This document shows positions 28,617 through 48,438 of a DNA stretch of 64,000 nt, one piece after another. Below the pieces are notes generated by a model. That model saw only the letters and a program-made list of their open reading frames with translations, ran no database searches and had not been told where the DNA came from. Within the stretch, counting starts at the first letter, position 1. The number at the start of each line of letters is the position of its first letter. A program made the position numbers and the translations under genes. The DNA comes from Anaerotruncus massiliensis (ex Togo et al. 2026) (GTDB lineage Bacteria > Bacillota > Clostridia > Oscillospirales > Ruminococcaceae), in NCBI RefSeq assembly GCF_900199635.1, contig NZ_LT962687.1:94501-158500 (forward strand). The letters run 5' to 3'.

Positions 28617-28657
28617 AAAAAACAGCCGCCACGGCCGGCGAACCGGACGCAGCGTCC

Positions 28658-29050: not shown

Positions 29051-29171
29051 GATCTGATCCCTCCGCGTTTTATTGGGAAATGCGAGCTTACCATACAGTT
29101 TAATTGCTGCCGGGATGCTTGTCAAATCACTTTTTTCAAATCTGTTACGCGCCTGACGGGAGGACGGTGAC

Positions 29172-29939
29172 ATGCTAAACGACAGCCTCTACGATATGAT
29201 TTTCAAGAGAAAATCGTTTCACCTGTTCCGAGATACCGGCGATACCGGCATATCCCCCGAGGAACTGCGGTCGATTGAGGAAACCTGGCGTTCCCTGGTC
29301 CCCCTGTGCCCCGGGATTCGGACGGCCATTCGGATCGTCCCGGCTGGGGAAACCACCTGCAAGCGCGGACAGCAGGCCTGTATTTTGCTGTATAGCGAGA
29401 GGAAGGACCATTATTTGCAGAACATCGGGTACCTGGGCGAACAGCTGGAGCTGTCCCTTGTCTCGCAAAACATCGGAACGCTGTGGTACGGGATCGGAAA
29501 AGCGCCGGGGCCCCCGCCGGAGGGGCTCGATTTTGTCATCATGATCGCCATTGCCAAAATCGACGACGGCCAAAAATTCCGCAAGGACCTGTTCCGGAGC
29601 AAACGGAAGCCGGTCGGCGAAATCTGGCGCGGGGAGCCCGTCGAGGGCGTCACCGAAATTGTCCGGTTTGCGCCGAGCGCCTGCAACACGCAGCCGTGGC
29701 TGGTGGAACGCGAAGGCGACGCCTTGCGCGTTTACCGCGTGCGCAAGCCGGGCAGGAGCGGGATCATGCCCGCCGGCCAGGTGGCGTTCTACAACCAAAT
29801 CGATCTGGGGATTTTTTTGTGCTTTCTGGACCTCTGCCTTCAGCGGCGTCACATCCGGTACGAGGCGAAGCTGCACGCGGACCCCGGTTCGGACGGGGAA
29901 AAGACGCTGGCCGCGGTCTATAAATGGAAGCAGGACTGA
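29172..29939 (+). CDS. Nitroreductase-like protein (TM1586 type)
   Basis: 255 residues. Two halves in the TM1586-type putative nitroreductase fold: IFKRKSFHLFRDTGDTGISP with YLGEQLELSLVSQNIGTLWYG, then EIVRFAPSACNTQPWLVERE and FYNQIDLGIFLCFLDLCLQ. Binds FMN presumably. ATG 29172 follows GGGAGGACGGTGAC. Its 3' 373 bases are duplicated at 47620-47995 as part of the long direct repeat that brackets the island, so this intact gene marks the left edge. Confidence 0.8.
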   Translation: MLNDSLYDMIFKRKSFHLFRDTGDTGISPEELRSIEETWRSLVPLCPGIRTAIRIVPAGETTCKRGQQACILLYSERKDHYLQNIGYLGEQLELSLVSQNIGTLWYGIGKAPGPPPEGLDFVIMIAIAKIDDGQKFRKDLFRSKRKPVGEIWRGEPVEGVTEIVRFAPSACNTQPWLVEREGDALRVYRVRKPGRSGIMPAGQVAFYNQIDLGIFLCFLDLCLQRRHIRYEAKLHADPGSDGEKTLAAVYKWKQD

Positions 29940-29944
29940 ATAAG

Positions 29945-29981
29945 CGCCGAAGGGGCCGCTCTGTGAGCGGCCCCTTCGGCG
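29945..29981. terminator. Hairpin after the nitroreductase-like gene
   Basis: A 17-bp stem, CGCCGAAGGGGCCGCTC and its complement, with a TGT loop, between convergent gene ends. Only a short T-tail (TT), so termination strength is uncertain. Duplicated at 47999-48035. Confidence 0.6.
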
Positions 29982-29982
29982 T

Positions 29983-30144
29983 TCATGCGTCCGGTTCGAC
30001 CGGGACGCCTTCCTGTGATTTCATGACGTTTTGTTGATATTCATGGTTTTTATACCAATTGTCTAATGAGCCCCAGCCCCGCAGGAGCAGGCCGTAGCCC
30101 TGCTGCGCGAGCGGCAGCGGGCGCGGGGTGACGAGGCAGGCGTG
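29983..30144 (-). pseudogene. Truncated copy of the small membrane-protein gene
   Basis: Corresponds to the last 53 codons of the gene at 48037-48438. The frame loses homology at 30144, where island DNA begins, so it has neither start nor membrane segment. It is a by-product of the duplication. Confidence 0.85.
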
Positions 30145-30306
30145 TCATCGGTTTTCACGAGACGACCCGTAAAACGGGTAATCATGAGGATGTACCGCCA
30201 AATCAGGGATCGCGGCGGGACCCAACACACGCAAAGCCTAAGAAGCTTATCGTAGCAGGTACGGGCGGAATTGTACGCTTGCGATTCCTAGGAGGAGAGT
30301 TGAAAT
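30145..30306 (+). other. Structured leader-like sequence at the left island end
   Basis: First unique DNA of the island. Contains an ACCCGTAAAACGGGT hairpin, a CCGCC...GGCGG stem, the string ACGCAAAGCC followed by a TAAG-AAG-CTTA hairpin and TAGCAGGTAC, and ends with AGGAGGAGAG before an ATG. ACGCAAAGCC followed by a GC-AGGTAC block recalls the c-di-GMP-I (GEMM) riboswitch core, but the 5' core is not a good match. Treated as an unidentified structured leader. Confidence 0.3.
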
Positions 30307-30402
30307 ATGCCGGAGCTGCGCAAGATTTTGGGAATCTATGCGGAGACCCGGTCGGAACTTCTTTTCAATACTTGCAAAATACAACCCATTATCATACAAT
30401 AA
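30307..30402 (+). CDS. Short ORF with strong ribosome-binding site, possibly a truncated gene
   Basis: 31 codons beginning MPELRKILGIYAETRSELLF. AGGAGGAGAG at 30290-30299 is ideally placed. The 3' part is AT-rich and overlaps the next promoter, suggesting a gene fragment whose rest was lost when the island was assembled, or a small leader peptide. I do not recognise it. Confidence 0.35.
   Translation: MPELRKILGIYAETRSELLFNTCKIQPIIIQ
30372..30400 (+). promoter_or_regulatory. Promoter of the LytTR response regulator
   Basis: -35 TTGCAA (30372-30377), 17-base spacer, -10 TACAAT (30395-30400), in a distinctly AT-rich stretch 79 bases before the gene. Confidence 0.65.
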
Positions 30403-30478
30403 TAATGTTTTCATAAACCATCAAAGTAAATTCTATTTTTAGGGTTGAAAAACAAGGGCGTCATAAGGGGGAGTACCC

Positions 30479-31186
30479 ATTTATAAGATAGCGGTTTGTG
30501 ATGATATTGAGCGGGATTTGGAGGAGATGGCGGCGGCAGCCGCTGCGTTGCTGCGGGAAGCAGGGATGGAAACCGAGACCGAATTTTTCCATACGGCCTC
30601 TGAACTGCTGAAGGCCCACAAACAGGGAACGTCTTGGGACTTGATCCTGTTGGATATTATGATGGATGACGGGCAGGACGGGATCAATGTCGCGGAATGC
30701 CTGAGGGAACGCGGTGATGAAACCGATCTGGTGTTCGTTTCAAGAAGCCCGGAGTTTGCGCTGGCGGGCTATCGAAGCTATCCGGTGAGTTATCTGCTGA
30801 AGCCGCTTACACAGGAAAACCTGAGGCCGGTATTGCTGCATTGCCTGGAAAGGCGTAAGGAGCGGCCTTCTCTCGTATTGGAGACGTTGGGAGGCGGCGC
30901 AACCGCGATCCGATTGAGTGATATTCGTTATATTGAGATTTTCCGACGGGAACTGGTGGTTCACTGTAAGGAAAAAACCGTTTCCTGCTTCGGCGCGTTG
31001 AAAACAGTTCTGGACGCGCTGCCGCCGGAAAGCTTTTACCACTGCCACCGCAGCTTCATTGTCAACCTCGCGTGTGTGAGCGGGATTCAAAAATACCGGT
31101 TTCTGCTGCACGGCGAAGGGGAGGTTCCGGTTGCCGTCCGGCGTTATCAGGATGCGCAGGCCCGGTGGCTGGAGTTTCTTACATAA
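30479..31186 (+). CDS. LytTR-family response regulator (apparent ATT start)
   Basis: 235 residues if read from ATT at 30479. Receiver domain: YKIAVCDD (acidic D8, D9), phospho-acceptor D59 in DLILLDIMM, Lys in SYLLKPL. The C-terminal LytTR DNA-binding domain includes IRYIEIFRRELVVHC and FYHCHRSFIVNL. GGGGGAG at 30467-30473 is spaced five bases from the ATT; the frame is closed by TAA at 30464, and no ATG/GTG/TTG gives the conserved N-terminus (the TTG at 30518 would remove D8/D9). Likely controls the island's surface genes together with the neighbouring kinase. Confidence 0.88.
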   Translation: MYKIAVCDDIERDLEEMAAAAAALLREAGMETETEFFHTASELLKAHKQGTSWDLILLDIMMDDGQDGINVAECLRERGDETDLVFVSRSPEFALAGYRSYPVSYLLKPLTQENLRPVLLHCLERRKERPSLVLETLGGGATAIRLSDIRYIEIFRRELVVHCKEKTVSCFGALKTVLDALPPESFYHCHRSFIVNLACVSGIQKYRFLLHGEGEVPVAVRRYQDAQARWLEFLT

Positions 31187-31213
31187 AAAGCCGCTTTCGC
31201 AAGCGGCTTTTTT
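31185..31213. terminator. Bidirectional terminator between regulator and kinase
   Basis: AAAAAGCCGCTT / AAGCGGCTTTTT stem with a TCGC loop and T-runs on both strands; separates the convergent response regulator and kinase genes. Confidence 0.92.
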
Positions 31214-31225
31214 GCACGAGGAGAA

Positions 31226-33067
31226 TCAATGATTTTCCGGGGGAAGCCGTAATGCGGCTTGCAGAGTAAATACCGACCCCAGCTGCCGAAGCTCCAACGC
31301 CCCGTCATATTTCTCAGTCACCCGGCGCATGGTGGGAATCCCCAATCCGTGGCAGCCGGCATCGGGTTTGCTGGTGAGAAAAGAGCTGCTCCCCGTATTC
31401 CGGGGCGGGGCGGAATTCTGGCAGATGACGAGGAACACCCCTTGCCTGACCGCCAGCGACAGGGAAATAAAACGCTCACTGCCGGCGGGAAGGCGCTCAC
31501 ACGCCTCCACCGCGTTATCCAGCAGATTTGATAAGAGCATACACAAATCCGCGTCGGCGATGGGCAGGTTTTCGGGGACGCGGGCCTCACACTCGATCCG
31601 GATGCCGGCGTTCCCCGCGGGGCCGAGCCGCCCCGAAAGGATGGCGTTCACCAGGAAATTTTCCGTATAATAGAGCTGTGGAAGCTCCTCTTTTTGCCGG
31701 TCGAGCTCGGCCAAATACGCGCCCAGACGGACATATTCTTCCGCCTGATAAAAAGCCGTCATTGTTTCCACATGGTGGCGCAGCTCGTGCTTCAGGGCAC
31801 GTGCTTGCTCAATGGCGCCGCGCATCTGAGCGGCGCTATCGGCGGCGAACCGATTTTGCAGCTTCATTGCTTGAAGTTCGGCGCTTTCCCGCAAAAGCCG
31901 TGCGTTCCGGCGCACCATCAGGCCGCCGAAGGCCAGGACCAGCGCGGCCCCCGCGTACTCCTCCTGCCAGAGTCCATAGATCGGCTCGAACTTGTTGGCG
32001 TCCCAGAAGTCCGCGAAGAGGCTGACGCCCAGAATGCCCGCGGCGGCCAGCACAAACGGGACCGCGCCATGCTTTTCCCCGCCAAGCCCGGTCCCCGCGC
32101 AAAGGGCGAGGAAAGCCCAGATCAGCAGTTTGGCCCCATCCATCAGCCCGCCGTAAAACTTGACGAAACCGGGCGCCGCCGGTATGATGAAAAGTACGGC
32201 GGTCATAGACAAAATGCACACGAAAAGTGCGGCGGGGCGCAGAAGCCGCCGGTACCAGGCGTTCCGGCGTAGTCCGGAGGCGACGGCCGCCACCGCCGCC
32301 GCCTCGCAGAGCGCCAGAAGCCAGGAGGCGTCCTCCACCGCGTACCAGAGCGTCCCTGAAAGCCCCAGCTGCCACACGAATGGATGAAGGCAGTGGACGG
32401 CGAAGGCGAGGCAGAGGACGCCGAAGTGGAGGAAAAGCCCATCCCTTTCCCGCGAAAACCACAGCGACAGGGAGAAGATCGCCAGCGTCAGCGCCGAAAC
32501 CACCGCCGCAGAATATACCAGTGTGCGAAGAAAGGACATTTGCCCAATGGCTTCAGCGGTGCCCAGCATGGGCGGGTAGGTGAGGCCGCTGTAGTAGTGG
32601 CTCCGATTGACGGTTTCCAGCCGAAGGCCGGTGTCACCGCCACCCACGGGGACATCGATCACAGCGCCCGATCCAGTGGATGCCGCCGGCCGTTGGTTCA
32701 CATAAAGCGTATATTCGGTGAAGACCTGCGGCAGTTCCAGCAGGAGGGTGCGGGGCGGGCCTTCATAGCGCAGAGTCAGGGTATAGGTCCCTTCGCCAAA
32801 GGGGGAATCCCGGCCCGGCAGAAATGAAAAATTGGAATACTGCCCAATGAAAACCTCCCGTCCGTCCAGGAGCCAGCCGTCGACCAGCGGGATGGGTTTC
32901 GTCAAATCGCTTTCGGAAAAAGAAAACACGCCGTCCTCGCCGTAAGGGGGGCCGGCGGTATATTTGTTATCGAAGCGGTAGGTGCCGGCCAGCAGCAACG
33001 CGAACGCCAGCAGGGAGCACGCCGCGCAAATCCAGGAAAGGAGACGGTGTTCATGAAGTTTTTGCAT
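31226..33067 (-). CDS. Sensor histidine kinase, 7TM-type with GHKL domain
   Basis: 613 residues. One N-terminal membrane helix (LLSWICAACSLLAFALLLAG), an extracytoplasmic beta-rich domain to about residue 190 similar to 7TMR-DISM input domains (GTYTLTLRYEGPPRTLLLEL), then seven hydrophobic segments, a coiled linker and an AgrC/GHKL-type kinase core: H-box LKHELRHHVETM, N-box LLSNLLDNAVEAC and G-box CHGLGIPTM. Partner of the convergent LytTR regulator. ATG 33067 is used; its ribosome-binding site AGGAG lies inside the divergent gene, whose coding start it overlaps by 15 bases. Confidence 0.88.
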   Translation of the reverse strand: MQKLHEHRLLSWICAACSLLAFALLLAGTYRFDNKYTAGPPYGEDGVFSFSESDLTKPIPLVDGWLLDGREVFIGQYSNFSFLPGRDSPFGEGTYTLTLRYEGPPRTLLLELPQVFTEYTLYVNQRPAASTGSGAVIDVPVGGGDTGLRLETVNRSHYYSGLTYPPMLGTAEAIGQMSFLRTLVYSAAVVSALTLAIFSLSLWFSRERDGLFLHFGVLCLAFAVHCLHPFVWQLGLSGTLWYAVEDASWLLALCEAAAVAAVASGLRRNAWYRRLLRPAALFVCILSMTAVLFIIPAAPGFVKFYGGLMDGAKLLIWAFLALCAGTGLGGEKHGAVPFVLAAAGILGVSLFADFWDANKFEPIYGLWQEEYAGAALVLAFGGLMVRRNARLLRESAELQAMKLQNRFAADSAAQMRGAIEQARALKHELRHHVETMTAFYQAEEYVRLGAYLAELDRQKEELPQLYYTENFLVNAILSGRLGPAGNAGIRIECEARVPENLPIADADLCMLLSNLLDNAVEACERLPAGSERFISLSLAVRQGVFLVICQNSAPPRNTGSSSFLTSKPDAGCHGLGIPTMRRVTEKYDGALELRQLGSVFTLQAALRLPPENH

Positions 33068-34912
33068 CAATTAACGCTCCTTTCTCTCTGCGCCGTATTG
33101 CCGCTGGGGATGGTCTGTCCGGTCCACGCGGAGGGGGAGCCGCCCCAGGCGCGGGTCTACCGCGCAGCGGACGACAGCCCGTATCAAATCCGATTCAACC
33201 GGGACATCGATTTTGGGCTCATTACCCGGAACATCGGCGAGGACGACTTCTACTGGGACAGCGGGAGCGACACGTTTGCACTGCTGTGGGACGAGGGGGA
33301 ATTCGACGCCGCGGTGGGGCGGGGAGAAACCGCGTTCACCATGACGGGCGAATACGGCCTTCCCGGTCAAAGTTCCCCGGAGCTGGCGGAACTTTGGGAC
33401 ATGGGACTCGTGACCATGCCGGACCCGCCGAGGCTGCTGGTCCATATTCGCCCCCGGGACGATCAGACGGTTTACAGTGTCCAGGACGAGGAGGTCATAT
33501 GGAAGGTGCGGGAGGACACGCTCTTTGAGGATGCCGTCCGGTATCAGGACACCCTGACGCTGCGGCCGGCGGAGGGGGCAAACCCCTATCAAGACCCCGC
33601 CAGCCTGGATTTTTGCGTCACCTGGAACCGGGCCGACTATGAAGCGGGCATCGGGAGCGGCGCGGAAACCTTCACGATTTCCGGCATTTACGGAGAGCCG
33701 GACTGGGACGAGATGAAGGGCTGGGCCAGAGCGGAGGGAACCGCCGTGGCGACGGTGGCCGTTGAGAGGGAACCCGGCGAACCGCTTGTTTACCGGGATC
33801 CGGCGGCCGACGACCTCGGCGGCATGGTCTGCGCCGCCTACGTGACTTCGGGAACGCGGTTTGATGAGCTGCGCCTTCCGGAGGAAGCGACGCTGCGCCT
33901 GGTGGACGGGACCTATCAGGACACGCGGCGCTTTGCTTACCGGTGGAGCCGCGAGGCATTTGAAGCGGGCATCAAGTCGGGGGCGGAATGTTTTACCGTT
34001 CCGGGCAGCTACGCCCCCCATGCCGCTTGGACCGGCGGGGAGAAGCAGCGCTGGGACGACGGGCTAATCCTGGTGGACATGCCCGTTCCCGAACTCACCG
34101 TCCACGTGCTGCGGGACAGGGAGTTCCCCTTTACCGCCGACGTCAGGATCAACAGCTACGGCGATCTGGGCCCCTATTTTGCGTTCCCCTGGGTCGCGGG
34201 GATGGAAAAAGCCGTCCTCGCCTACTCCCTGGACAACGAAACCTGGTATGAGGAACCCTGGTCCTGGGATGACCTCCCCAGCGACCAGCGGCAAAGCGGA
34301 AGATTTGAATACACGCTGATTGCCGCGGATGAGGATTACAATCCGATGATAACAGAATCCACCGCCGTTTTGTATGTGAAAGTGACGGTCGTTGGCTCCC
34401 CTTTCGCGGGGGTCACAAAAGTTTTTGACCTCAAGCCGTCCTCCGGGGGTTGGGATATGACGCCCCACGACGACAACAGCGGCGACCACGGCGGCGGGGG
34501 CCAGGGAGAAAACGACCGCCCAGGCAAAGAGGAGTCGGACGACGCGCCGGAGCGCTCCCCCGAGACGGGCGCATCCTCCGGGCCAAAGCCCGCCGGACCC
34601 ACGTCCGAGCCGCCGGAAAGCGGGCAAACGCCTCAGCCGCTCCCGTCCCACGAAGCTGATCAGACGGGCGGAACCGCCAAAACGGATCTTGCATCCCGGG
34701 AAGATTCCGTCGGCCCATCGTCTGAAGCGGCAAGCGAAAAAGAGGATGCGGCGCCGGGATCGGTTCCCGATCCCCCGGCAAGCCCCGTGGCCGCGGCCGC
34801 GTCCAATCCCTCGCCCCCCCATGTCCCCGGTTTCGCGGCGGCGACGGCTGCCACGGCCGCGCTGGTCCTGGGGGCCGCGATCTGGTCCCACCGGCATGGA
34901 AAACAAAAATAA
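33053..34912 (+). CDS. Secreted, membrane-anchored repeat protein of unknown function
   Basis: 619 residues. Signal peptide MKFLHQLTLLSLCAVLPLGM with cleavage after VHA. Three related units of about 115 residues follow, marked by FALLWDEGEFDAAVGRGETAF, then FCVTWNRADYEAGIGSGAETF, then FAYRWSREAFEAGIKSGAECF. A Pro/Ser/Glu-rich spacer (about residues 470-590) leads to a C-terminal helix (AAATAATAALVLGAAIW) and a basic tail. No LPxTG motif. Fits a surface protein standing off the wall. ATG 33053 follows AAGGAG; the start overlaps that of the divergent kinase. I do not recognise the repeat. Confidence 0.75.
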   Translation: MKFLHQLTLLSLCAVLPLGMVCPVHAEGEPPQARVYRAADDSPYQIRFNRDIDFGLITRNIGEDDFYWDSGSDTFALLWDEGEFDAAVGRGETAFTMTGEYGLPGQSSPELAELWDMGLVTMPDPPRLLVHIRPRDDQTVYSVQDEEVIWKVREDTLFEDAVRYQDTLTLRPAEGANPYQDPASLDFCVTWNRADYEAGIGSGAETFTISGIYGEPDWDEMKGWARAEGTAVATVAVEREPGEPLVYRDPAADDLGGMVCAAYVTSGTRFDELRLPEEATLRLVDGTYQDTRRFAYRWSREAFEAGIKSGAECFTVPGSYAPHAAWTGGEKQRWDDGLILVDMPVPELTVHVLRDREFPFTADVRINSYGDLGPYFAFPWVAGMEKAVLAYSLDNETWYEEPWSWDDLPSDQRQSGRFEYTLIAADEDYNPMITESTAVLYVKVTVVGSPFAGVTKVFDLKPSSGGWDMTPHDDNSGDHGGGGQGENDRPGKEESDDAPERSPETGASSGPKPAGPTSEPPESGQTPQPLPSHEADQTGGTAKTDLASREDSVGPSSEAASEKEDAAPGSVPDPPASPVAAAASNPSPPHVPGFAAATAATAALVLGAAIWSHRHGKQK

Positions 34913-34923
34913 GAAACCCCATG

Positions 34924-34957
34924 CACCTGCTCTTCTGCCTGAAGAGCAGGTGTTTTT
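34924..34957 (+). terminator. Terminator after the secreted repeat protein
   Basis: CACCTGCTCTTC / GAAGAGCAGGTG stem with a TGCCT loop followed by TTTTT, 12 bases after the stop. Confidence 0.93.
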
Positions 34958-35112
34958 CTATTATACGTTATACGGTATCACAGAAACTCCCGCCGCGTCA
35001 ACCGGCCGTCATTGCATTCGTACCGTATATGTGACGTTGGTGCAAAAGGTCACACGAGAAATGCAAAAACTGATAAAATTATGATAATTGTATCGCGTAT
35101 CCGACAATCAGG

Positions 35113-35163
35113 GTTAAGAGAGGGGGCATGCCCCCTCTCTTAACCGCCCCATGGGGCGGTTAA
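35113..35163 (+). promoter_or_regulatory. Two overlapping perfect palindromes in the leader of the giant surface gene
   Basis: Palindrome 1 is 32 bases (35113-35144, GTTAAGAGAGGGGG arm, CATG centre); palindrome 2 is 24 bases (35140-35163, TTAACCGCCCC arm, AT centre). They share TTAAC at 35140-35144, so as RNA hairpins they cannot both form fully. They lie about 40 bases before the start codon of the giant gene. Neither has a good T-run. Could be an alternating regulatory structure or a protein-binding site. The rest of 34958-35203 is AT-rich leader without a gene. Confidence 0.55.
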
Positions 35164-35203
35164 ACTCCTTTGTCAGAGAGCAATCTTTATAGGAGGGCGA
35201 ACT

Positions 35204-36958
35204 ATGAAAAATCACACCTGCCGCCGGGGGCTTTCATTGCTGTTGGCCGTCTGTATGGCGCTGAGCATGACCAACAGTTTTGTGTATGCACAGGCCGGGG
35301 AGGAACCGGCGAACATTGTGCAGCAGGATACGGCAGAAGAGGCGGACAGCTCCAGGGATTCCTCTCCCTCCCTTGACAATACGCCTGTAAAGATAGAGGA
35401 GGCAAAGGACCAGCCCGCGCCGAATAGCAGTAGCGGTCTTCCGGTGGACTCTGAGAAGGCGGAGACGCCTGAGCCGCCCGCGCCGCCAACCTGCAGCTGC
35501 CCGGCTGCGGACAGCGGCGAGGTGGCGCACAGCGAGGACTGCCCTCTCTACAGAAAGCCGGACGAGCCCGCGCAGGAAAAGAAATGCACCTGCGCCGCGC
35601 TTTGCACAGAGGACGCGGTGGATGCGGAGTGCCCCGTCTGCGCCGAACACTGGGAGAGCTGCGCCTTTACGGAGGAGCAGCCGGAAGAAAAATGCACCTG
35701 CACCGCGCTTTGCACAGAGGACGCGGTGGATGAAGCCTGCCCGGTCTGCGCCGAACACTGGGAAAGCTGCGCCTGTCTGCCGGAACAGTCCGAAGCGGCA
35801 AAGGCGGCGCTGGCGCTGATCGCGGCGCTGCCCACGGTGGAGGAGCTGCAAGCCGAGATATTGGCGGCCTACGAAGCGGATACGCCGGACGAGGCCGCCG
35901 CTGCCGCGCGCATGGATGAGGTGAGGGCACAGGCGGAGGCCGCCCGCGCGGCCTTCGACGCTCTCTCCGACGAGGAGAAAGCGGCGTTCGACCCCGAGGC
36001 GCTCGCCAAGCTCGCCGCGCTGGAAACCATGTTTTCAGTGACGACACTGGCGGATGGCGAGCGAATCCCCCTGACGGATGACGTGACGAAGCTGGAACTC
36101 GGCGGGTACTACAGTATCAGCAATGACGCCCAGTACCAGCATTTCATGAACCTGATCTCAGCGAACAACCCCGAAGCGTCGTCGATCCATACCGAGATCG
36201 GCACCGGCGCCACCGTCTATCTGGAAACGAGCCTGTATGCGGGCGCCGGCATCGGGGGACCCATCGGCGGGAGCATCATTGACTCCAGCTCGACCCCCGT
36301 CCGCTTCAACGGCACCTTTGACGGCCAGGGCCATTCGGTAAACCTGAACATCAACGGCAGCATCTACAGCGGGATGTTCGGGGCCCTGGGGGGCAATGCG
36401 GTGGTACAGAACGTCGTGGTCACCGGCAAGGTGAACGGCGGCGGCTACACCGGCGGCATCGCGGGGAAGGCCTTCGGGGGCACCATCCAAAACTGCGTCA
36501 GCCTGGCGGAAGTCAGCGGCGCGGGCAACGTGGGGGGCATCGCGGGGAGCGCCCGCAACATCAAAAACTGCGCCAGCGGCGGCAGCGTCACCGGCACCGG
36601 GGAGGCTGTTGGGGGCGTTGTGGGCTCCATCGGCGGGGCGCTGGACCACTGTTACAGCACCGGCACCGTCAGCGGCGCGCGCTATGTGGGGGGCGTCGCC
36701 GGGGTCAGGGGCAGCGAAGCGGCCTGTACGCCCTGGGGGAGAAGGTCACCGGCGCCCAGGATGTGGGACGGGTGCTGGGGGGCACCAGCAGCGGCGGCAC
36801 CCCCGAGGGGCCCTTTTATGCCCGGGCGGACCTCCTGTTCGGCGCCGCCGGTTCGGAGCGAACCATCGCCAGCGGCACCGGGGTCAGCGACACCGGCATC
36901 CATGGCGAGAGCATCGAGGTCCCCAAAGAAGGGGCCCAAAAGGTTTCCGCCGTCGTGA
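35204..36958 (+). CDS. Giant surface protein, N-terminal part (frameshifted from 36763-47376)
   Basis: Signal peptide LSLLLAVCMALSMTNSFVYA, acidic linker, then two copies of a Cys-rich unit (period about 108 bases at 35583 and 35691; CTEDAVD..CPVCAEHWESC), a helical EA-rich stretch (EAARAAFDALSDEEKAAF) and GLUG-type repeats (GYTGGIAGKAFGGTIQNCVS, VGGIAGSARNIKNCASGG) from about 36400. Good coding sense stops near 36700-36725 (YVGGVAGVRGSE); after that the frame turns to arginine/proline-rich nonsense while the next frame continues the domain (LYALGEKVTGAQDVGRVLGG). ATG follows TAGGAGGGCG. Gene or sequence is frameshifted. Confidence 0.75.
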   Translation: MKNHTCRRGLSLLLAVCMALSMTNSFVYAQAGEEPANIVQQDTAEEADSSRDSSPSLDNTPVKIEEAKDQPAPNSSSGLPVDSEKAETPEPPAPPTCSCPAADSGEVAHSEDCPLYRKPDEPAQEKKCTCAALCTEDAVDAECPVCAEHWESCAFTEEQPEEKCTCTALCTEDAVDEACPVCAEHWESCACLPEQSEAAKAALALIAALPTVEELQAEILAAYEADTPDEAAAAARMDEVRAQAEAARAAFDALSDEEKAAFDPEALAKLAALETMFSVTTLADGERIPLTDDVTKLELGGYYSISNDAQYQHFMNLISANNPEASSIHTEIGTGATVYLETSLYAGAGIGGPIGGSIIDSSSTPVRFNGTFDGQGHSVNLNINGSIYSGMFGALGGNAVVQNVVVTGKVNGGGYTGGIAGKAFGGTIQNCVSLAEVSGAGNVGGIAGSARNIKNCASGGSVTGTGEAVGGVVGSIGGALDHCYSTGTVSGARYVGGVAGVRGSEAACTPWGRRSPAPRMWDGCWGAPAAAAPPRGPFMPGRTSCSAPPVRSEPSPAAPGSATPASMARASRSPKKGPKRFPPS

Positions 36959-39900: not shown

Positions 39901-42900
39901 GGCGGGGACGACCTGGAGAAGGCAGTGGCGGCCTCAGGCATCGGTCTTGACAAAATCACCGCGCTGGAGATCGCGGCGGGGGAGATCACCGCCGACGATT
40001 GGACCTGGTTTACGGAAAAGAGGGAAAGCCTTACCGCCCTCGCCAGCTTTGAGGCGGCCGGGTCGGTAACGGCCGCGCCGATCCCCAACGTCGGGAACCT
40101 CAACGGGAATAATGGCGTCTTTCCCGGCAGCATTGTGTCGGTGAAGATTCCAGGGCTCACCGCCATCGGGAACGGCGCGTTTATGTACTGCAAGGAGCTG
40201 ACCACGGCGGAGATGCCCGAGGTCACCCAGATCGGAATGAAAGCGTTTGCGTATTGCGAAAAACTGACCGAGGCCGCCTTCCCCCAGGTGGAGGTGCTGC
40301 CGCAGTATGCGTTCGCCTACTGCTCCGCCCTGGAAAAGATCGATTTCAGCGGGCTCAAAGCCGCTGGCCAGGGGGTCTTTATGAACTGCAAGGCCCTAAA
40401 GGAGGTAAGCCTGCCGGAACTGACGGCCCTCCAGGCCGCCGCCAATAGCGACTATGCCATCAACCTGTTCAGAGGCTGTACCGCTCTCCAAACCATATCC
40501 ATGCCCAAGGCTGGATCCGTATCCAACAGCATGTTTTACGGCTGCACCGCACTGACCGCCGTCAGCTTCCCCCAGGCAGCGAGTATCGGCATCAGCGCCT
40601 TTTATGGCTGTTCCAATCTGGCTGAGGCCTCCTTCCCCAAGGCGGCCGAGGTCGGCTCGCAAGCGTTTTACAACTGCACAAAGCTCACGTCCCTGAAGCT
40701 GCCGGCCGATCCTCCCAGCGTATCCAATTCCGAGGTTTTCAGAGGCTGCGCTTCCAAGCGTTCCCTGACCCTTCTGGGGACGGACGGCAATACCCTGACC
40801 GGCGACGCCCTCGCCGCCGCGCAGGCCGCCTACGACGGTGTGACCGAAAACGGCAACGCGGCGGGGGACGGCCGCTGGTACGGCTGGCTGGTGGGGGAGC
40901 CGAAGATCACCATCGGGGAGACGGTGCAGACCGCCACCTACTCGGGCGGCGGCTGGACCTTTACCGTGACGCCCACCCCCAGCGGCGTCACCGGCTTCTC
41001 GGTCACGTACCAACAAAACGGAACCCCCGTCGCTTCCCCGACAAATGCGGGAAGCTATGACGTAACCGTGACCCGCCCCGCCGACAGCACCTATGCGGCG
41101 TTTGAGAAAACAATTTCCGGTGGACTGGTCATCAATCCGGCCACCCCAACCCTGACATGGCCGGCGGAAAGCCAGACCATCCCCGTGGGCGGGAGCATCA
41201 CCCCGCCCGACGTCACCCTGGTAAACGGCGAAACCTACAACGCCGCCGCCAACGGCGGGATCGTCTACGCCTACAAGCCCAAAACCGCGACGGCCGCCTC
41301 GTTCTTCCGGAGCTTATTCAGCGGCGGCTACACCGTCGGCCTGCCCACGGCGGCGGGGGAATATCTGGTGCGGGCGGGGCTTGCGGCCAAGGGCAACTAC
41401 GCCGAAGCCTCCACCGAAACCGACCTCCAGCTCACCATAATGGAGGCGCCTGCCGATAAAATCACCATCACGCTGGACGGCGGTTCCGCCAGCGGGGCCA
41501 GCCTGGAGGAGGCCGTGACAAAGAGCGGCAGGGAGGCGGCAACGGTCAAGGCCCTCACGGTGACGGCAGGCGAGCTGACCGCCGATGACTGGACCTGGTT
41601 CCAAGGAAAGTTTTCGGCCCTCACCGGCTTCACGGTGGCGGAAGGCGTGACCGCCGCGGATATCCCCGCCGGCGAGGTAAACCTCCCCGTCTTCCCCACG
41701 ACCATCCAGAGGGTGCATGCCGCAGGAGTGAAAGCCGTCGGCGGCCGCGCGTTTACAGGCTGTCTGAGGCTTACCACAGCCAGCTTCCCCGACGCGACAA
41801 CCCTTGGCCAAAATGCGTTTTATTGCTGCACCGCCCTCACGGGCGCCAGCTTCCCCAAGGTGACGAAGGTCAGCGCCGACGCCTTCAACGGGTGCGGGCG
41901 CCTTTCCACCGTGGATTTTTCGGCCGCGACGATCATTGACATCAGGGCGTTCCAGGACTGCGAGACCCTCACCGCCCCCGTCTTCCCCGCCGCGAAATAC
42001 ATCGGCAACTCCGCGTTCCTTAATTGTGACGGCCTCACCACCCCCAGCTTCCCCGTGGCCGCATCCATCGGCGCCAATGGGTTCAAAGGCTGCACAAAGC
42101 TGACGGCCCCTGTCTTTGGGGATGTGACAGACATCGGAGCTTCGGCGTTTTATAACTGCGGGAAGCTTGTGGACGCCAGTTTCCCCCAGGTCCTGGCCAT
42201 CAGCAACAACACGTTTTATAACTGCACCTCTCTCGTGAGCGCCAGCTTCCCCGGGGCAAAGCAAGTGAACTCATATGCATTTGAAGACTGTAGGAACCTG
42301 GAAACAATCAGCTTCCCCGAGGCGATAACCATTGGCAGCAATGCGTTCAAGGGGTGCAACGCCCTCGCCAGCGCCGCCTTCCCCAAGGCCAACTTCATTG
42401 GCGACGGCGCATTCGAAAGTTGTGCGGCGCTGAAAACCCTCACCCTGGGCGCGGCCCGGCCCACTTCGGTTTCCGCCACCGCCTTTACGGGGTGCCCGAA
42501 CGACCGCAAACTGGCGCTGGTGGGCGCGGACGGCGCCGTGCTGGCAGACGATGACGCCGCATGGGCGTCTTACAAGGCGGCAGGCGACGGCGACACCACC
42601 GACAGCTACTGGTACGGCTGGAAGCTGCCCGCAAAGGACCTGCCCGCCGCCAAGATCGCCATCACGCTGGACGGCGGTTCCGCCAGCGGGGCCAGCCTGG
42701 AGGACGCCGTGACGAACAGCGGCAAGGACGTGGCAGGAGTCAAGACCCTCACGGTGACGGCGGGGGAGCTTACCGCTGGAGACTGGGCCTGGTTCAAAGA
42801 GAACTTTACGGCCCTCACCGACTTCACGGTGGCGGAAGGCGTGACCGTGGCGGACATCCCGAGCGACAAGGTCTTTCCCTCAAGCCTCGAGCGCGTCTTC

Positions 42901-45900
42901 ATCCCCCAGGCAATCAAAATCGGCAACGATGCGTTTGGGAACTGTAACGGGCTTTCATACGCCAGCTTCCCTCGGGTGACGAAGATCGGTAATAAAGTGT
43001 TTGGAAGCGGCGCCCAACTGAAAACGCTCCGGCTGGGCGCGACCCCACCCGCCGTGAGCTATGACACTGCGTTCGAAGGCTGCCCGGCCGAGCGTTCGCT
43101 GGTCCTTGTGGACGCGGACGATCAAGAGCTTTCCGGCGAGGCCCTCGCCGCCGCTCAGAAGGCCTACATCTCCTGTTACGACGAGAATCCGTTCGACCAC
43201 CGGTGGTATGGCTGGAAGGTCACGGAGCCCGCCCCCACCGCGATCACCATCAAGGTGAACGGCGGCAACCCGGTGGAGGGAGCCAATTTGAACGACGCGG
43301 TTTTCAACTCCGGCGGCGCGGACAAGGTTGCAACGCTGGAGGTGCTGTCCGGCGAAATCACCGCTTTCGACTGGAAAAACTTTCATAGCCCATACACCTA
43401 TGATCAAAACGCTCTAAAGAGCTTTTCGGTTGCGCCCGAGGTCAAAGTGGAAAAAGAGATGGGCAGCGCAAAGTTCAGCAACAGCGCGCTGGAGAGCGTC
43501 AGCATCCCGCAGGCGGTCGCCATCGGAGACGTTGCGTTCATCAATTGCTCTCATCTTTCCAGCGTAACCATTCCAGAGGCGACCTCCATCGGGGGACAGG
43601 CATTTCGGGACTGTGCCGCCCTGACAAGCGCCGACTTCCCGAAGGCGGCCTCGATTGAATCGGGCGCGTTCATGGGTTGCGGGGCGCTCGCGACGGTTAC
43701 CCTTTCCTCCGCAACCGAGCTTAAAACAGATACCTTTGAGAAGTGCACGCAGTTGACGGCCGTCAAACTTCCCCAGATAACAAGGATTTGGTCTGATGCG
43801 TTTGAAGACTGTACATCGCTCGCTTCCATCAGCTTGCCGGCCGCTCCGCCGACGGCATCTAAGTCCTCGTTCAGCGGCTGTCCCTCTCCGCGCGCAATCA
43901 CCTTTGTGGACGCAGGCGGCGCGCCGCTCACCGGCAGCGCCTTAAAGGCGGCGCGGGCCGCCTACAAGGCTGTGGCGGACGGCAACACGGACGATGACCT
44001 TTGGTACGACTGGACGATCGGCAGCGGCGATTCCGCCGGCACCGGCGGCGACCTGACCGCACCGCTGACCCAAGACAAGGTGGACGGCGTGTTCGGGCCT
44101 GGCAACGCCACGCTGGACGGCACCACCAATCCCCCCACCATTACAATCAACAACGATGTCGTGGTGGATGAAACCATCGTTGTCAAAGCCGGGGTCGATG
44201 TGGTCATCGACCTGGGCGGACACACCATCACCGGCAAGCCCGGCGTGAGCCCTGTCATCATCATTGAGAGCGGCGCGGACGTGACCATCAAAGGCCCCGG
44301 CTCGGTCAACGGCGTCGATGGCGAAAATAAACCCGGTGGGACCGGCGGCAATGGCGGCGACGGCATTCAGGCCGACGGCAGCCTGACGGTGGACGACGGC
44401 GCGGATATAAACGGCGGCGCGGGCGGCAGCGGCGATGTGGGCGGCAACGGCGGCGACGCCATCACCGGCAGCGGAAACATTACCATCAACGGCGGGTCCG
44501 CCACGGGCGGCGACGGCGGCAGCGGCGCGGGCGGCAACGGCGGCAACGGCGGAGACGGCGCGTCCTCAACCGGCTCTGGAACGGTTGACGTTGGCACGGA
44601 CGGCAGCGCCGCCGGCGGCAACGGCGGCAACAGCACCGGCGGCAATGGCGCGGGCGGTGCGGGCGGCAACGGCACCCAAACCGGCGCGGGCGGCTCCACC
44701 ACCGTGAACGGTGAAACAAACGGCGGGAACGGCGGCAGCGGTTCCGGCACGGGTGGCGGCGGAAATGGCGGCAACGGCACGGTGATCGACGGCGGTACGG
44801 CCGGCGGGAACGGTTCCGCCACCGGCGGCGACGGAGGCGGCGTGCCCGAGGACGGCACAGGCAATCCCGGCACGGGCGGGCAGGGCGTTTCCGGCGGCGA
44901 TGCGGGCGACGTCGCCAGCACACCCGGTTCCACCGGCGTGTCCGGCTCTGTGATCACCATCACCGTACAGCCCGCAGACAAAACGGTTGCGGCGAACGGC
45001 AGCGCCGACTTCACGGTGGAAGCCACGGCCAGCGGCGGCAAAACGCTGATCTACCAGTGGTATCAGATGCTGGGCGACAAGCCGAATCCGAGCAAGGACA
45101 CCCCGCTTACAAACGCGAAGACATTCACGGCAAACGACAAGAATTATACTGGCATCCGGAGCACCATTTACCAATTCTATTGCGTGCTGTCCGCCAACGG
45201 GGCGGAGAGCGTCACCACAAGGGTCGCCACCCTGACGGTCAGCAACGAAACCAGCGGACTCACCGCCCCGCTGACCCAAGAGAAGGTGGATAACGCCTTT
45301 GGTCCGGGCAACGCGACGCTCCAGCCGGATGGCACGATCAAGATTGAAAAAGATGTTACCCTGGACGATCCCATCCGGGTGGAAACCGATGTGACCATCG
45401 ACCTTGGCGGCCACACGATCAACGGCGCCAACGGTCAAAACGGTTCGGACGGCAAGCCATCCTTCGTGGTGGTGGGCGATCACACCCTTACGATCATCGG
45501 CGGCGGCACGATTTCCGGCGGCGATGGCGGCGATAACCCCGGCGGTACAGGCGGCGACGGAGCGCCCGGCGTCGACTTGGGTTCGGACGGCAACATTTCT
45601 GTTGACGATGGCGCCATCACCGGCGGCGACGGCGGCAGCGGCTCTACTGGCGGAAACGGCGGAAACGGTGTCACTGGCGGCGGTGGCAGCGACGTCGAAA
45701 TCGGCACGGGAGGCAGCGCCTCCGGCGGCAACGGCGGCGACGGCTCCACCGGCGCGGGCGGCAACGGCGGCGATGGCACGTCCACAGGCGGCAGCACCGT
45801 TGTCAACGGTGAAACCACCGGCGGCAACGGCGGATCCGGGAGCACAACCGGCGGCGATGGGGGTAACGGCTCGACCTCGGCCGGTTCCGGCTCTATTGAT

Positions 45901-47376
45901 GTAGGTACCGGTGGGAACGCGACTGGCGGCGACGGCGGCAACGGAACAGGAAACGGCGGCGGCGGCAACGGCGGCAATGGCACCGAAACCGGCGGCTCCA
46001 CCACGGTCGGAGGAAACACCGCCGGCGGCTCTGGCGGCATGGGATCCGGCACGGGCAACGGTGGTGACGGCGGCGACGGCACGGTCATCGGCGGCGGTGC
46101 GGCTGGCGGGAATGGTTCCGCCACCGGCGGCGACGGCGGAAACATCCCTGGCGATGGTACCGGAAATCCAGGCGCCGCCGGCGAAGGCATCAGCGGCGGC
46201 GATGGGGGTAACGTCAACAACACCCCCGGCAAGGCCGGCTTTAAGGTCACAGCAATCGTGGATGACACGAAGGCCGGGACCACCGTGACCGCACCTGAAA
46301 AGGATCTGGCCGACGCGGTAATCACGCAAGAGGATATCGATAACAACCGCAACGTCAAGGTGGAGCTGATCGTCGAAAAGAGGGATGATCAACCCGATAA
46401 GACTCTTGTGGAACAAACCTTGGGAGGAACCAAGGCGGACACCATCGGCGTCTACTTCGAGATCACGCTTGAAAAGACCGTGACCGAAAGCGGGACGACA
46501 AAGCCGACGGAAACGATCACCGAGTCGCACCAACCGATCGAGATAACCATAACCATCCCTGACGATATGCGCGGCGGCAGCAATTATGTGGTCATCCGCG
46601 TACATGATGGCAGCGCTGTGGCTTTGCCTACCACGCAGTCCGAAAACAAGCTGATATTCCAAACCGACAAATTTTCCACCTACGCCATCGCATATACCCC
46701 GGGTGGAACGACCCCGCCCGCACCGCCGCACGGCGGCGGTAGCCATGGGAGCAATGGAGGCTCTTCCCCGGATAACGATCAGTACGAATTCTGGATGGGC
46801 GTCAAGGACAAAATTAACGGCGCGCGGGATGGGGACGTGGTCAAGGTGAACGCACACGGCTACGACAAGATGCCATGGAGCGTCATGGACGCCCTTCGCG
46901 AGAATAGCGGTGTGAACCTTGTCATCACCTGGAACGGCAAGACCATTACCATTCCGGCGAACATGGCGCAGAAAAACGAATCAGGCCGAATCTATTGGCC
47001 GCTCAGCAAGCTGGCGGAACTGTACGCGGGGATTGCCGAGAGCACCGTTCTCAATCCCGCTGCGGAAACGAACCCCGAAACAGGCGGACCCGGCAAGTAT
47101 ATTCCCGTGACCGGAGGCGTCCTATATGAGGTGACCGCGCCTGCGGCAGAACCTGTCCGGCCTTCCATTCCCGGGCAGGCGGTGCGGCTCCAGCCGGATG
47201 TGCCTGAAACCATGACCCCGCCGGACGCGGGATTCCAAGCGGATGTTTATGCTGGCACCCCTGATGCTAGGATGGCGGAGCACAGTGTAAATGGAATATC
47301 CCTTGCAATCGCCGCGGTGATACTGATGATTCTTGCAGGGTATGGGGTGTGGACTTGGAAAAAGAAAAAAAGTTAA
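36763..47376 (+). CDS. Giant surface protein, main part (adhesin-like, BspA LRR, Big2 and polyglycine domains)
   Basis: At least 3,537 residues; sense in this frame begins upstream near 36721, so with the N-terminal part the protein is about 4,050 residues. In order: end of GLUG region; two Big2 Ig-like domains (37375-37860); further beta domains; five modules (from about 38620, 39870, 41455, 42650, 43230), each a VTAGEITADDW-type header plus BspA-type leucine-rich repeats (FYGCTALTAVSFPQA), several ending in YGW and followed by MBG-like domains; two beta-helix plus glycine-rich blocks (44050-44940, 45256-46220) around an Ig-like domain; a C-terminal FWMGVKDKINGARDGDVVKV domain; membrane helix and KKKK tail at 47282-47376. 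IPVTG occurs 80 residues before the helix. Surface adhesin inferred. Confidence 0.8.
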   Translation: MGRVLGGTSSGGTPEGPFYARADLLFGAAGSERTIASGTGVSDTGIHGESIEVPKEGAQKVSAVVNLGSSGWSYGDDGLFTYGVKLPLPTTTGGGTLGAIRPTLPGSYREPDNRPEHLTLEPSAVTMAVGKSRDIMALTKSDDQKVENREDSWTTKSNNESIIKLKGFYEQCTIYAIAAGTDTVTAKANDGQTASCAVTVVEAPTRVTLDQSSLTLNAGDTGTLKATVDGTTYQEVTWSSDDEGVAIVDENGKVTARAGGTTWITAASALDDKVYARCTVTVRPHASGVTLNKTAMSIERTRSEFLTATVKPNGAADKTVSWKSSDESVATVTANGNVTGVALGTATITVTTNDGGHTASCLVTVTELCTCALNNLQLTGTDPIIIPVDAPSATREIVGKAVYASTDECPAHPERTISYSCEIENNTAGATLEGNILTVTQAGEVTVQVTATAQPSEKTKSAQATITVTKAKPVEAAPNIGIDYVAEILTGFAEGGSYTVNGSPVTLDGTTLHIAESYFGQTLSIVKKGGDTTDDSAPQSLTVPARPAAPATPTGGEGEITGVDGTMEYRLSTASAWTAVPQGATALSLAQGAYRVRVKAVDGASFASPAKEVIVAAIPDMKITVTLDGQSVQGASLADAVRRSGLTASAIKQLTVTAGEITAEDWTGFETADANAADKTLPALTDFIVEDAVESVADIPHHNTNLFPATIRRVRIPKVKVIGESAFYECKALESADFPDATAIYGNAFFRCGNLKEASFPAVTTIRDMAFWYCEKFDSLTLGATPPAAPNGHRPFDETLPEFRFLHFVGADGASLTGDALTAAQAAYDSDAADGTANDGLWYGWTVRASEITIDKAVQTVSYSGKAQAFTVKPTPGSVTGFTVTYRQNGTKTTPIAAGTYDVTVTRAAEGDHPSLEETIPGGLVVSPAVPTLAWPAASQTIQEGGSITPPSVTLVNGESYSAAQNGEITYAYKPRTASIASFFRGLFSDGYTGGLPTAPGEYLVRAGLAARGNYAAAVTATDLQLTIEETPADAITVKVNGSQPVGGDDLEKAVAASGIGLDKITALEIAAGEITADDWTWFTEKRESLTALASFEAAGSVTAAPIPNVGNLNGNNGVFPGSIVSVKIPGLTAIGNGAFMYCKELTTAEMPEVTQIGMKAFAYCEKLTEAAFPQVEVLPQYAFAYCSALEKIDFSGLKAAGQGVFMNCKALKEVSLPELTALQAAANSDYAINLFRGCTALQTISMPKAGSVSNSMFYGCTALTAVSFPQAASIGISAFYGCSNLAEASFPKAAEVGSQAFYNCTKLTSLKLPADPPSVSNSEVFRGCASKRSLTLLGTDGNTLTGDALAAAQAAYDGVTENGNAAGDGRWYGWLVGEPKITIGETVQTATYSGGGWTFTVTPTPSGVTGFSVTYQQNGTPVASPTNAGSYDVTVTRPADSTYAAFEKTISGGLVINPATPTLTWPAESQTIPVGGSITPPDVTLVNGETYNAAANGGIVYAYKPKTATAASFFRSLFSGGYTVGLPTAAGEYLVRAGLAAKGNYAEASTETDLQLTIMEAPADKITITLDGGSASGASLEEAVTKSGREAATVKALTVTAGELTADDWTWFQGKFSALTGFTVAEGVTAADIPAGEVNLPVFPTTIQRVHAAGVKAVGGRAFTGCLRLTTASFPDATTLGQNAFYCCTALTGASFPKVTKVSADAFNGCGRLSTVDFSAATIIDIRAFQDCETLTAPVFPAAKYIGNSAFLNCDGLTTPSFPVAASIGANGFKGCTKLTAPVFGDVTDIGASAFYNCGKLVDASFPQVLAISNNTFYNCTSLVSASFPGAKQVNSYAFEDCRNLETISFPEAITIGSNAFKGCNALASAAFPKANFIGDGAFESCAALKTLTLGAARPTSVSATAFTGCPNDRKLALVGADGAVLADDDAAWASYKAAGDGDTTDSYWYGWKLPAKDLPAAKIAITLDGGSASGASLEDAVTNSGKDVAGVKTLTVTAGELTAGDWAWFKENFTALTDFTVAEGVTVADIPSDKVFPSSLERVFIPQAIKIGNDAFGNCNGLSYASFPRVTKIGNKVFGSGAQLKTLRLGATPPAVSYDTAFEGCPAERSLVLVDADDQELSGEALAAAQKAYISCYDENPFDHRWYGWKVTEPAPTAITIKVNGGNPVEGANLNDAVFNSGGADKVATLEVLSGEITAFDWKNFHSPYTYDQNALKSFSVAPEVKVEKEMGSAKFSNSALESVSIPQAVAIGDVAFINCSHLSSVTIPEATSIGGQAFRDCAALTSADFPKAASIESGAFMGCGALATVTLSSATELKTDTFEKCTQLTAVKLPQITRIWSDAFEDCTSLASISLPAAPPTASKSSFSGCPSPRAITFVDAGGAPLTGSALKAARAAYKAVADGNTDDDLWYDWTIGSGDSAGTGGDLTAPLTQDKVDGVFGPGNATLDGTTNPPTITINNDVVVDETIVVKAGVDVVIDLGGHTITGKPGVSPVIIIESGADVTIKGPGSVNGVDGENKPGGTGGNGGDGIQADGSLTVDDGADINGGAGGSGDVGGNGGDAITGSGNITINGGSATGGDGGSGAGGNGGNGGDGASSTGSGTVDVGTDGSAAGGNGGNSTGGNGAGGAGGNGTQTGAGGSTTVNGETNGGNGGSGSGTGGGGNGGNGTVIDGGTAGGNGSATGGDGGGVPEDGTGNPGTGGQGVSGGDAGDVASTPGSTGVSGSVITITVQPADKTVAANGSADFTVEATASGGKTLIYQWYQMLGDKPNPSKDTPLTNAKTFTANDKNYTGIRSTIYQFYCVLSANGAESVTTRVATLTVSNETSGLTAPLTQEKVDNAFGPGNATLQPDGTIKIEKDVTLDDPIRVETDVTIDLGGHTINGANGQNGSDGKPSFVVVGDHTLTIIGGGTISGGDGGDNPGGTGGDGAPGVDLGSDGNISVDDGAITGGDGGSGSTGGNGGNGVTGGGGSDVEIGTGGSASGGNGGDGSTGAGGNGGDGTSTGGSTVVNGETTGGNGGSGSTTGGDGGNGSTSAGSGSIDVGTGGNATGGDGGNGTGNGGGGNGGNGTETGGSTTVGGNTAGGSGGMGSGTGNGGDGGDGTVIGGGAAGGNGSATGGDGGNIPGDGTGNPGAAGEGISGGDGGNVNNTPGKAGFKVTAIVDDTKAGTTVTAPEKDLADAVITQEDIDNNRNVKVELIVEKRDDQPDKTLVEQTLGGTKADTIGVYFEITLEKTVTESGTTKPTETITESHQPIEITITIPDDMRGGSNYVVIRVHDGSAVALPTTQSENKLIFQTDKFSTYAIAYTPGGTTPPAPPHGGGSHGSNGGSSPDNDQYEFWMGVKDKINGARDGDVVKVNAHGYDKMPWSVMDALRENSGVNLVITWNGKTITIPANMAQKNESGRIYWPLSKLAELYAGIAESTVLNPAAETNPETGGPGKYIPVTGGVLYEVTAPAAEPVRPSIPGQAVRLQPDVPETMTPPDAGFQADVYAGTPDARMAEHSVNGISLAIAAVILMILAGYGVWTWKKKKS
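44322..44930 (+). repeat. Glycine-rich coding repeat 1
   Basis: Codes for about 200 residues dominated by GG-x-GG-x triplets (for example GGNGGNGGDG), with Asn, Asp, Ser and Thr between. It directly follows a beta-helix-like stretch with IDLGGHTITG. Such periodic glycine can form a polyglycine-II helix bundle. The DNA has the degenerate GGCGGCAACGGC unit. Confidence 0.85.
45505..46222 (+). repeat. Glycine-rich coding repeat 2
   Basis: Second glycine-rich block of about 240 residues, again after a beta-helix-like stretch (IDLGGHTING). The two units, including the header TAPLTQ-[DE]-KVD...FGPGNATL, are clear duplicates with diverged sequence. Confidence 0.85.
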
Positions 47377-47582
47377 CATTCGCACCCCGATTACAGGAAT
47401 TGCGTCGCAGCCGCGGCCTGACCCGAGCGCAACTCACGAACAGCATAGGAGAGAAACAGGAAACCATCAGCGGCTGGGAACGCGGCAAAGAGGCGCCGGG
47501 AGTCGTCACGATTGTCAAGCTGTCGGATGCCCTTCAGGTTTCGATCAATTACCTTCCGAATAATTGTTTCATCCAAATTTAA
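47349..47582 (+). CDS. XRE-family helix-turn-helix regulator
   Basis: 77 residues consisting of one HTH_3 domain: RLQELRRSRGLTRAQLTNSI then GEKQETISGWERGKEAP. The start is GTG 47349, inside the last ten codons of the giant surface gene (28-base overlap), which suggests translational coupling. It ends 37 bases before the right direct repeat, so it is the last island gene. Probably regulates island expression or maintenance. Confidence 0.8.
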   Translation: MDLEKEKKLTFAPRLQELRRSRGLTRAQLTNSIGEKQETISGWERGKEAPGVVTIVKLSDALQVSINYLPNNCFIQI

Positions 47583-47619
47583 ATCCAGCAGCCGATCTTT
47601 TTTATCCTCAACCCGCCGG

Positions 47620-47995
47620 CGGCCAAAAATTCCGCAAGGACCTGTTACGGAGCAAACGGAAGCCGGTCGGCGAAATCTGGCGCGGGGAGCCCGTCGAGGG
47701 CGTCACCGAAATTGTCCGGTTTGCGCCGAGCGCCTGCAACACGCAGCCGTGGCTGGTGGAACGCGAAGGCGACGCCTTGCGCGTGTACCGCGTGCGCAAG
47801 CCGGGCAGGAGCGGGATCATGCCCGCCGGCCAGGTGGCGTTCTACAACCAAATCGATCTGGGGATTTTTTTGTGCTTTCTGGACCTCTGCCTTCAGCGGC
47901 GTCACATCCGGTACGAGGCGAAGCTGCACGCGGGCCCCGGTTCGGACGGGGAAGAGACGCTGGCCGCGGTCTATAAATGGAAGCAGGGACTGAAT
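47620..47995 (+). pseudogene. 5'-truncated copy of the nitroreductase-like gene
   Basis: Carries the last ~125 codons of the gene at 29172-29939 without its start. One extra G near 47987 (AAGCAGGGACTG against AAGCAGGACTG) also destroys the native stop. An ATG at 47564 makes a chimeric open frame, but its first 18 codons are unrelated. Confidence 0.85.
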
Positions 47996-47998
47996 AAG

Positions 47999-48035
47999 CG
48001 CCGAAGGGGCCGCTCTGTGAGCGGCCCCTTCGGCG
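47999..48035. terminator. Hairpin between the pseudogene and the small membrane-protein gene
   Basis: Right-repeat copy of the 17-bp stem at 29945-29981 (CGCCGAAGGGGCCGCTC). It lies just after the stop of the minus-strand gene. Confidence 0.6.
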
Positions 48036-48036
48036 T

Positions 48037-48438
48037 TCATGCGTCCGGTTCGACCGGGACGCCTTCCTGTGATTTCATGACGTTTTGTTGATATTCGTAG
48101 TTTTTATACCAATTGTCCAATGAGTCCCAGCCCCGCAGGAGCAGGCCGTAGCCCTGCTGCGCGAGCAGCAGCGGGCGCGGGGTGACGAGGCAGGCGTGGT
48201 CCTGCCGCCAGGCCTCGAACGCATTGAAGGGCTCCAGGGAGATGGCGTACTGCCTGCCCAGCAGGGCGACGCTGTATCGGAGTTCCCCGGCGGGCGCGAT
48301 CTCAAGCGCGCGGACGCCGGCTGCGTTTTCATAGCGGGAGCTGGTGGTGTCGACCCACAGGAAGAGGGCCAGCCAGCCCGTCAGGATCAGGGTCAAAAGA
48401 AAGGAAACCCAAAAGAGGCGCGCATCTCTGTTTAACAT
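48037..48438 (-). CDS. Small membrane-anchored protein next to spoIIP
   Basis: 133 residues. Short cytoplasmic start (MLNRDARLFW), one membrane helix (VSFLLTLILTGWLALFLWV), and an extracytoplasmic domain with YSVALLGRQYAISLEPFNAF. Located 33 bases downstream of spoIIP on the same strand, so it may share its sporulation transcript. I do not recognise the family. Its 3' third lies in the direct repeat and is duplicated at 29983-30144. Confidence 0.65.
   Translation of the reverse strand: MLNRDARLFWVSFLLTLILTGWLALFLWVDTTSSRYENAAGVRALEIAPAGELRYSVALLGRQYAISLEPFNAFEAWRQDHACLVTPRPLLLAQQGYGLLLRGWDSLDNWYKNYEYQQNVMKSQEGVPVEPDA

Follow-up and report, generated by a model that had tools for sequence, protein, structure and literature searches.

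The genome of Anaerotruncus massiliensis carries a foreign-looking block of about 17.5 kb between two directly repeated copies of a 578-bp segment, and each copy holds one border gene whole and the other broken. We confirmed this arrangement, an island flanked by duplicated half-genes, and tentatively take as its leading mechanism a single RecA-type crossover, in which a circle bearing the insert and the 578-bp segment would have recombined with the chromosome. Positions are those of the window, the whole 64,000-nucleotide stretch of DNA analyzed, and the features that bear on the argument are these:

23072-24907, minus strand: lepA, native far flank (TIGR01393, E 7.4e-300).
24950-29566: older accessory layer, with GNAT acetyltransferase, hydrolase-like (matches under the cut-off), YdeI/OmdA-like, glyoxalase-like and nitroreductase genes.
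29172-29939, plus strand: TM1586-type nitroreductase, intact, its 3' part in the left repeat (PF14512, E 3.9e-23).
29567-30144, plus strand: left direct-repeat copy, 578 bp.
29940-29986, and again 47994-48040: terminator-like hairpin where two convergent genes end, in both repeat copies.
29983-30144, minus strand: small-gene remnant (last 53 codons and stop).
30145-47619: foreign-looking insert, 17,475 bp, bounded from BLASTN and the repeat alignment.
30479-31186, plus strand: LytTR response regulator, start uncertain (PF04397, PF00072).
31226-33070, minus strand: GHKL-domain sensor kinase, its gene convergent with that of the regulator (PF14501).
33047-34912, plus strand: probable surface protein, unclassified, with a signal-like start and a C-terminal membrane-anchor-like end (by eye).
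35204-36958, plus strand: giant surface protein, N-terminal piece, with a signal-like start and a GLUG motif (PF07581).
36763-47376, plus strand: giant surface protein, main piece, with Big_2 and BspA-type LRR_5 repeats and an anchor-like end (PF13306, E 1.2e-125; PF02368).
47355-47582, plus strand: short XRE-type HTH regulator, 75 aa (PF01381, E 1.2e-12, residues 13-67; HTH domain ending near 47555).
47553-47618, minus strand: stretch of 22 residues, possibly left from the tail of a large serine recombinase and cut by the right repeat; not secure.
47620-48198, plus strand: right direct-repeat copy, 579 bp, containing the nitroreductase remnant.
48037-48438, minus strand: small membrane-protein-like gene, intact, 133 codons.
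48472-49725, minus strand: spoIIP, native flank (PF07454).

The two repeat copies lie in the same orientation and differ by nine substitutions and one 1-base gap, bearing out the roughly 98% identity given in a preliminary description of this DNA; their longest identical runs are 148, 137 and 110 bp. BLASTN stretches the match six bases leftward, with two mismatches, to 573/585, and a chance origin is excluded (E = 2.7e-291). These are the only long copies in the whole genome (3.15 Mb, 98.75% complete, seven contigs, with the locus inside a 3.03-Mb contig), and the remaining two genome matches are a 37-bp hairpin read on the opposite strand. The repeat begins inside the nitroreductase-like gene, spans the hairpin between the convergent gene ends, and stops inside the small gene. 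At the left copy the nitroreductase is whole (255 aa) and the small gene is reduced to its last 53 of 133 codons; at the right copy the small gene is whole and about 123 nitroreductase codons are left, with a frameshift. Both the reciprocal pairing of intact and truncated border genes and the island of some 17.5 kb between the repeats had been claimed beforehand, and both hold.

The border genes have different distributions. The nitroreductase belongs to the TM1586 type, scoring 82.7 bits against PF14512, whose family cut-off is 27; none of the 10 other genus genomes matches it, and among 30 further relatives two do so weakly. The small gene, for which no Pfam family was found, occurs in 8 of the 10 other genomes of the genus as well as in one further genome (G016), and spoIIP adjoins it at eight of nine fetched loci, the ninth (L033) being a contig end. 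Transfer RNA genes at a border are a common, not universal, attachment target of integrative elements. The sole candidate at this border, a tRNA-Gly called by ARAGORN at 29697-29780 inside the nitroreductase gene and in the left copy only, finds no support from Rfam and is probably false.

The insert encodes a regulator, a kinase and surface proteins. Response regulator and kinase pairs usually share one operon; the two genes here (30479-33070) are convergent. Before its first acidic residues the regulator frame lacks ATG, GTG and TTG, the first TTG being at 30518; by eye, translation may start at an ATT that follows a stretch resembling a ribosome-binding site. Neither Pfam nor NCBIfam matches the 33047-34912 protein. 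In the main piece of the giant surface protein the LRR_5 family scores 413.6 bits over nine stretches, placing it among BspA-type leucine-rich repeat proteins, and this frame accounts for all seven LRR_5 matches in the genome. The N-terminal piece matches the CD1107-like mobile-element family PF14283 at 20.9 bits, below the cut-off of 26. The giant protein is spread over two overlapping frames, so its gene is either broken, or misread by the assembly, once. Across the six main insert ORFs, the Pfam and NCBIfam matches over cut-off include no family of integrases, transposases, relaxases or replication proteins, and no transfer gene; beyond these ORFs the scan covered at most part of the gaps at 30145-30478, 34913-35203 and 47583-47619 and of the overlapping ORFs. 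The earlier remark that no integrase or transposase is seen stands, over cut-off, for the six genes scanned.

The composition of the insert is unlike that of its surroundings, with 30001-47475 lying at a dinucleotide distance of 95 from the remainder of the window, against 41-60 for the five island-free 17.5-kb windows tested. Searched against 11 genus genomes, the left 356 bp of the insert matches its own genome alone, and the right 920 bp matches itself plus 56 bases at 80% in one genome (G006). Against 148 family genomes, which include its own and one other genus member, 30145-35200 has two outside matches, of 31 and 47 bases, among the matches listed. Scans of wider collections, which may omit records very near this genome, gave nitroreductase relatives at at least 77 loci of other genomes (a pattern scan; nearly all Firmicutes by title) and one relative in viral contigs, at 46% identity; they gave 21 plasmid records for the kinase, all below 60% identity and none covering 80%, and no match to the 33047-34912 protein in phages or viral contigs.

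The insert's ends carry no transposon signature. In its terminal 120 bp the longest exact inverted match is 7 bases, against a median of 6 and a maximum of 9 in 100 shuffles. Target duplications made by transposons and insertion sequences are short, a few to about 30 bp. We rejected such an element because 578 bp is too long, as had already been argued, no transposase was found in the six main ORFs, and the terminal inverted match does not exceed chance. As to an integrative element (ICE, IME or prophage), the six main ORFs contain no intact integrase, and the right edge holds the possible 22-residue recombinase tail considered below. At the left edge, the fold of 30140-30380 outscores that of most shuffles (z -2.25; equaled by 3 of 200), and a short reading frame follows it. 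Rfam assigns this edge to no family with E up to 1, and as a cut gene it gives a Pfam match of E 0.14, below cut-off.

The insert was not the first arrival at this site. At three of the nine fetched loci (L029, L031 and L034, the last from another genus of the family), lepA lies directly beside the small gene, with spoIIP on the other side; in the present genome some 23 kb part lepA, which begins at 24907, from the small gene. The lepA-small gene-spoIIP arrangement at these three loci represents an older empty state. By eye, the small gene's neighbors at the other six loci are aminoacyl-tRNA synthetases (L026, L027, L032), Trk-type genes (L028, L033) and a helicase (L030). The accessory genes of 24950-29566 are absent among the listed matches in the nine relatives' loci, and their dinucleotide distance to the outer flanks is 76, against 22-57 for 14 flank windows that themselves belong to the reference. 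The nitroreductase belongs to this earlier accessory layer, a point the preliminary description had missed, and since the junction of nitroreductase and small gene lies inside the repeat, it is older than the insert. The empty site proposed there, running from the nitroreductase through a single 578-bp segment and the small gene to spoIIP, was sought in relatives and not found: the 10 other genus genomes give only fragments of 27-64 bases for a single-copy nitroreductase-578-small gene arrangement. The failure to find that exact site follows from the nitroreductase, which is itself unmatched in all ten.

A hairpin-rich family of dispersed repeats also surrounds the region, with copies at 9271-9841, 22348-23000 and 52149-52899; the last has 203 matching pieces in its own genome, and blastn found none of the family in the nine relatives' loci. 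Parts of the 22.3-23.0 and 52.1-52.9 kb copies are mutually inverted and enclose the whole insertion region. Compared with 5600-52150 of the window, two relatives from the genus (G003 and G004; loci L026 and L027) have the spoIIP block inverted with an rpoA-rplQ block beyond, and the inversion breakpoints lie near the positions of the dispersed repeats in the present genome. We rejected these repeats as the cause of the island, as none of their copies falls within the 578-bp repeats and they form separate families in the repeat analysis.

The differences between the two 578-bp copies are divided by gene. Over the part that covers the nitroreductase, the right copy shows F141L, D237G, K244E, a silent substitution and a frameshift of one base relative to the left. 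Over the small-gene part, the left copy shows L to P, D to G and Y to H plus one silent difference relative to the right. No difference falls in the 43 bp that separate the stop codons of the two genes. Among the best 60 of 71 tblastn rows, residue 141 is F or Y in 52 and L in none, residue 237 is D or E in 57 and G in none, and residue 244 is K in 21 and E in 2, leaving K244E weakly polarized. In seven relatives of the small gene, the L-to-P site has L in four and P in none, and the D-to-G site has D in three and G in none; the polarity of Y to H is not assignable. We treat the frameshift as derived, since in the left copy the frame stops at the point where the relatives' alignments stop. All six polarizable changes fall in the copy where that gene is broken, an outcome with odds of 1 in 64 under random placement, and six changes being few, the support is moderate. 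Six of the eight changed codons alter the amino acid, and one further change is the frameshift.

Because every polarized change lies in a broken copy, decay after duplication fits better than an exchange of two working alleles, and the copies were probably near-identical when formed. Of the two origins that the preliminary description had allowed for these differences, the pattern favors an old event over an incoming copy. Integration of a segment from a related strain, its 578-bp copy already about 2% different, would account for the nine substitutions and the gap; yet working alleles should differ mostly silently and in either copy, and the bias toward broken copies and altered amino acids makes this origin improbable.

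From the repeat, the nested layers, the odd composition and the pattern of differences, all directly observed, we infer an order of events, together with the decay, the circle and the crossover. The nitroreductase gene would have arrived first, between lepA and the small gene. A single later event would then have inserted the 17.5-kb block 3' of the small gene and next to the nitroreductase, doubling 578 bp of resident DNA and leaving each border gene with one whole and one broken copy; the broken halves would then have decayed. The likeliest route would be the crossover with a circle bearing the insert plus the repeat segment, which would do this in one efficient step, and the same repeats would allow clean loss of the island. 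The direct repeats expected of a Campbell-type integration are present; the single-copy site was not found in the 10 other genus genomes. Several points count against the circle: with no replication, relaxase or integrase gene in the six scanned insert ORFs, the supposed circle could not maintain itself; the 578-bp segment would have to reach the circle through a prior, unexplained event; and the recombinase remnant at the right edge, if genuine, would point to an integrase-borne source instead. The structure does fit one crossover with a circle, but to call it the exact product of that event, as had been done, was an overstatement, since fill-in at a staggered break, or template switching, would leave identical anatomy. 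In such a break-and-copy event the 578 bp would have been copied twice, by illegitimate insertion at the break or by a switch of template during replication, with neither circle nor homology required. It is consistent with repeat ends that lie inside two genes at no evident site, with terminal inverted repeats not beyond chance, with mobility genes absent over cut-off, and with copies apparently near-identical when formed. However, 578 bp is judged long for such an event, and foreign-DNA insertions are, in one study, frequently coupled to deletions and not duplications (PMC3119063); we consider this route possible but somewhat unlikely. Sequence alone cannot choose between the crossover and break-and-copy.

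The edge peptide at 47553-47618 bears on a further origin, in which the insert is the decayed remainder of an element with its own large serine recombinase and the repeats arose by trimming or rearrangement. The peptide matches the tail (residues 453-474 of 618) of a recombinase frame in locus L158 at 45% over 22 residues and 23.9 bits, a score that one shuffle in 1000 equals; it begins at the point where the neighboring gene's HTH domain ends; and one insert protein has the sub-threshold CD1107-like match. Against this, a tail profile built from the recombinases of 30 loci gives the peptide a score that 20 of 2000 shuffles and 6 of 9159 27-mers from the window also reach; leaving L158 out raises these counts to 129 and 64. 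Moreover, its frame was picked by eye from six, Pfam and NCBIfam give no match at E up to 10, and the best solved structure (E 0.98) is an unrelated protein. The resemblance to a serine-recombinase tail fragment is suggestive only; a recombinase alone would leave the 578-bp duplication unexplained, and we think a decayed element of this kind an improbable origin. An assembly artefact, with two strains or contigs misjoined through the 578-bp repeat, has in its favor that the evidence is one assembly. It is highly improbable, as the locus sits within the 3.03-Mb contig of a seven-contig assembly, and changes in opposite halves of the two copies are not expected from a joining error.

Direct repeats around strain-specific or variable DNA are an already described kind of arrangement, of which this locus is a further case. 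In Campylobacter coli, pcp-mediated cfr(C) cassettes move as circles by homologous recombination (PMC10770853), and the likeness to our leading mechanism, the crossover with a circle, is that the cassette moves through recombination at ordinary gene sequence. That study showed circles and transfer, with pcp at several sites, whereas here we have direct repeats only, in two copies. In Haloquadratum walsbyi, strain-specific segments are bounded by direct repeats, one of them 734 bp (PMC3119063), so that a long direct repeat likewise encloses a segment missing from another strain; its authors infer repeat-mediated deletions from a comparison of two strains, whereas no same-species genome was found here. 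A section heading in a study of E. coli, S. aureus and S. pyogenes puts at "some 10%" the share of small variable segments that have direct repeats on their flanks (PMC2884548). Direct repeats there too flank variable DNA, with much of the diversity ascribed to illegitimate recombination; those segments are small and the present insert is 17.5 kb.

A broader reading is that, in bacteria, an insertion that needs no integrase, transposase or homology can double several hundred bases of its target; on the present evidence this is improbable. If it were true, islands of this size would arrive carrying the repeats for their own clean loss. Strains of the same species with and without the block, if they exist, would separate crossover with a circle from break-and-copy; otherwise the locus represents ordinary genome plasticity. 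It documents how insertions can be layered at a single site, with broken half-genes as a record of the later history.
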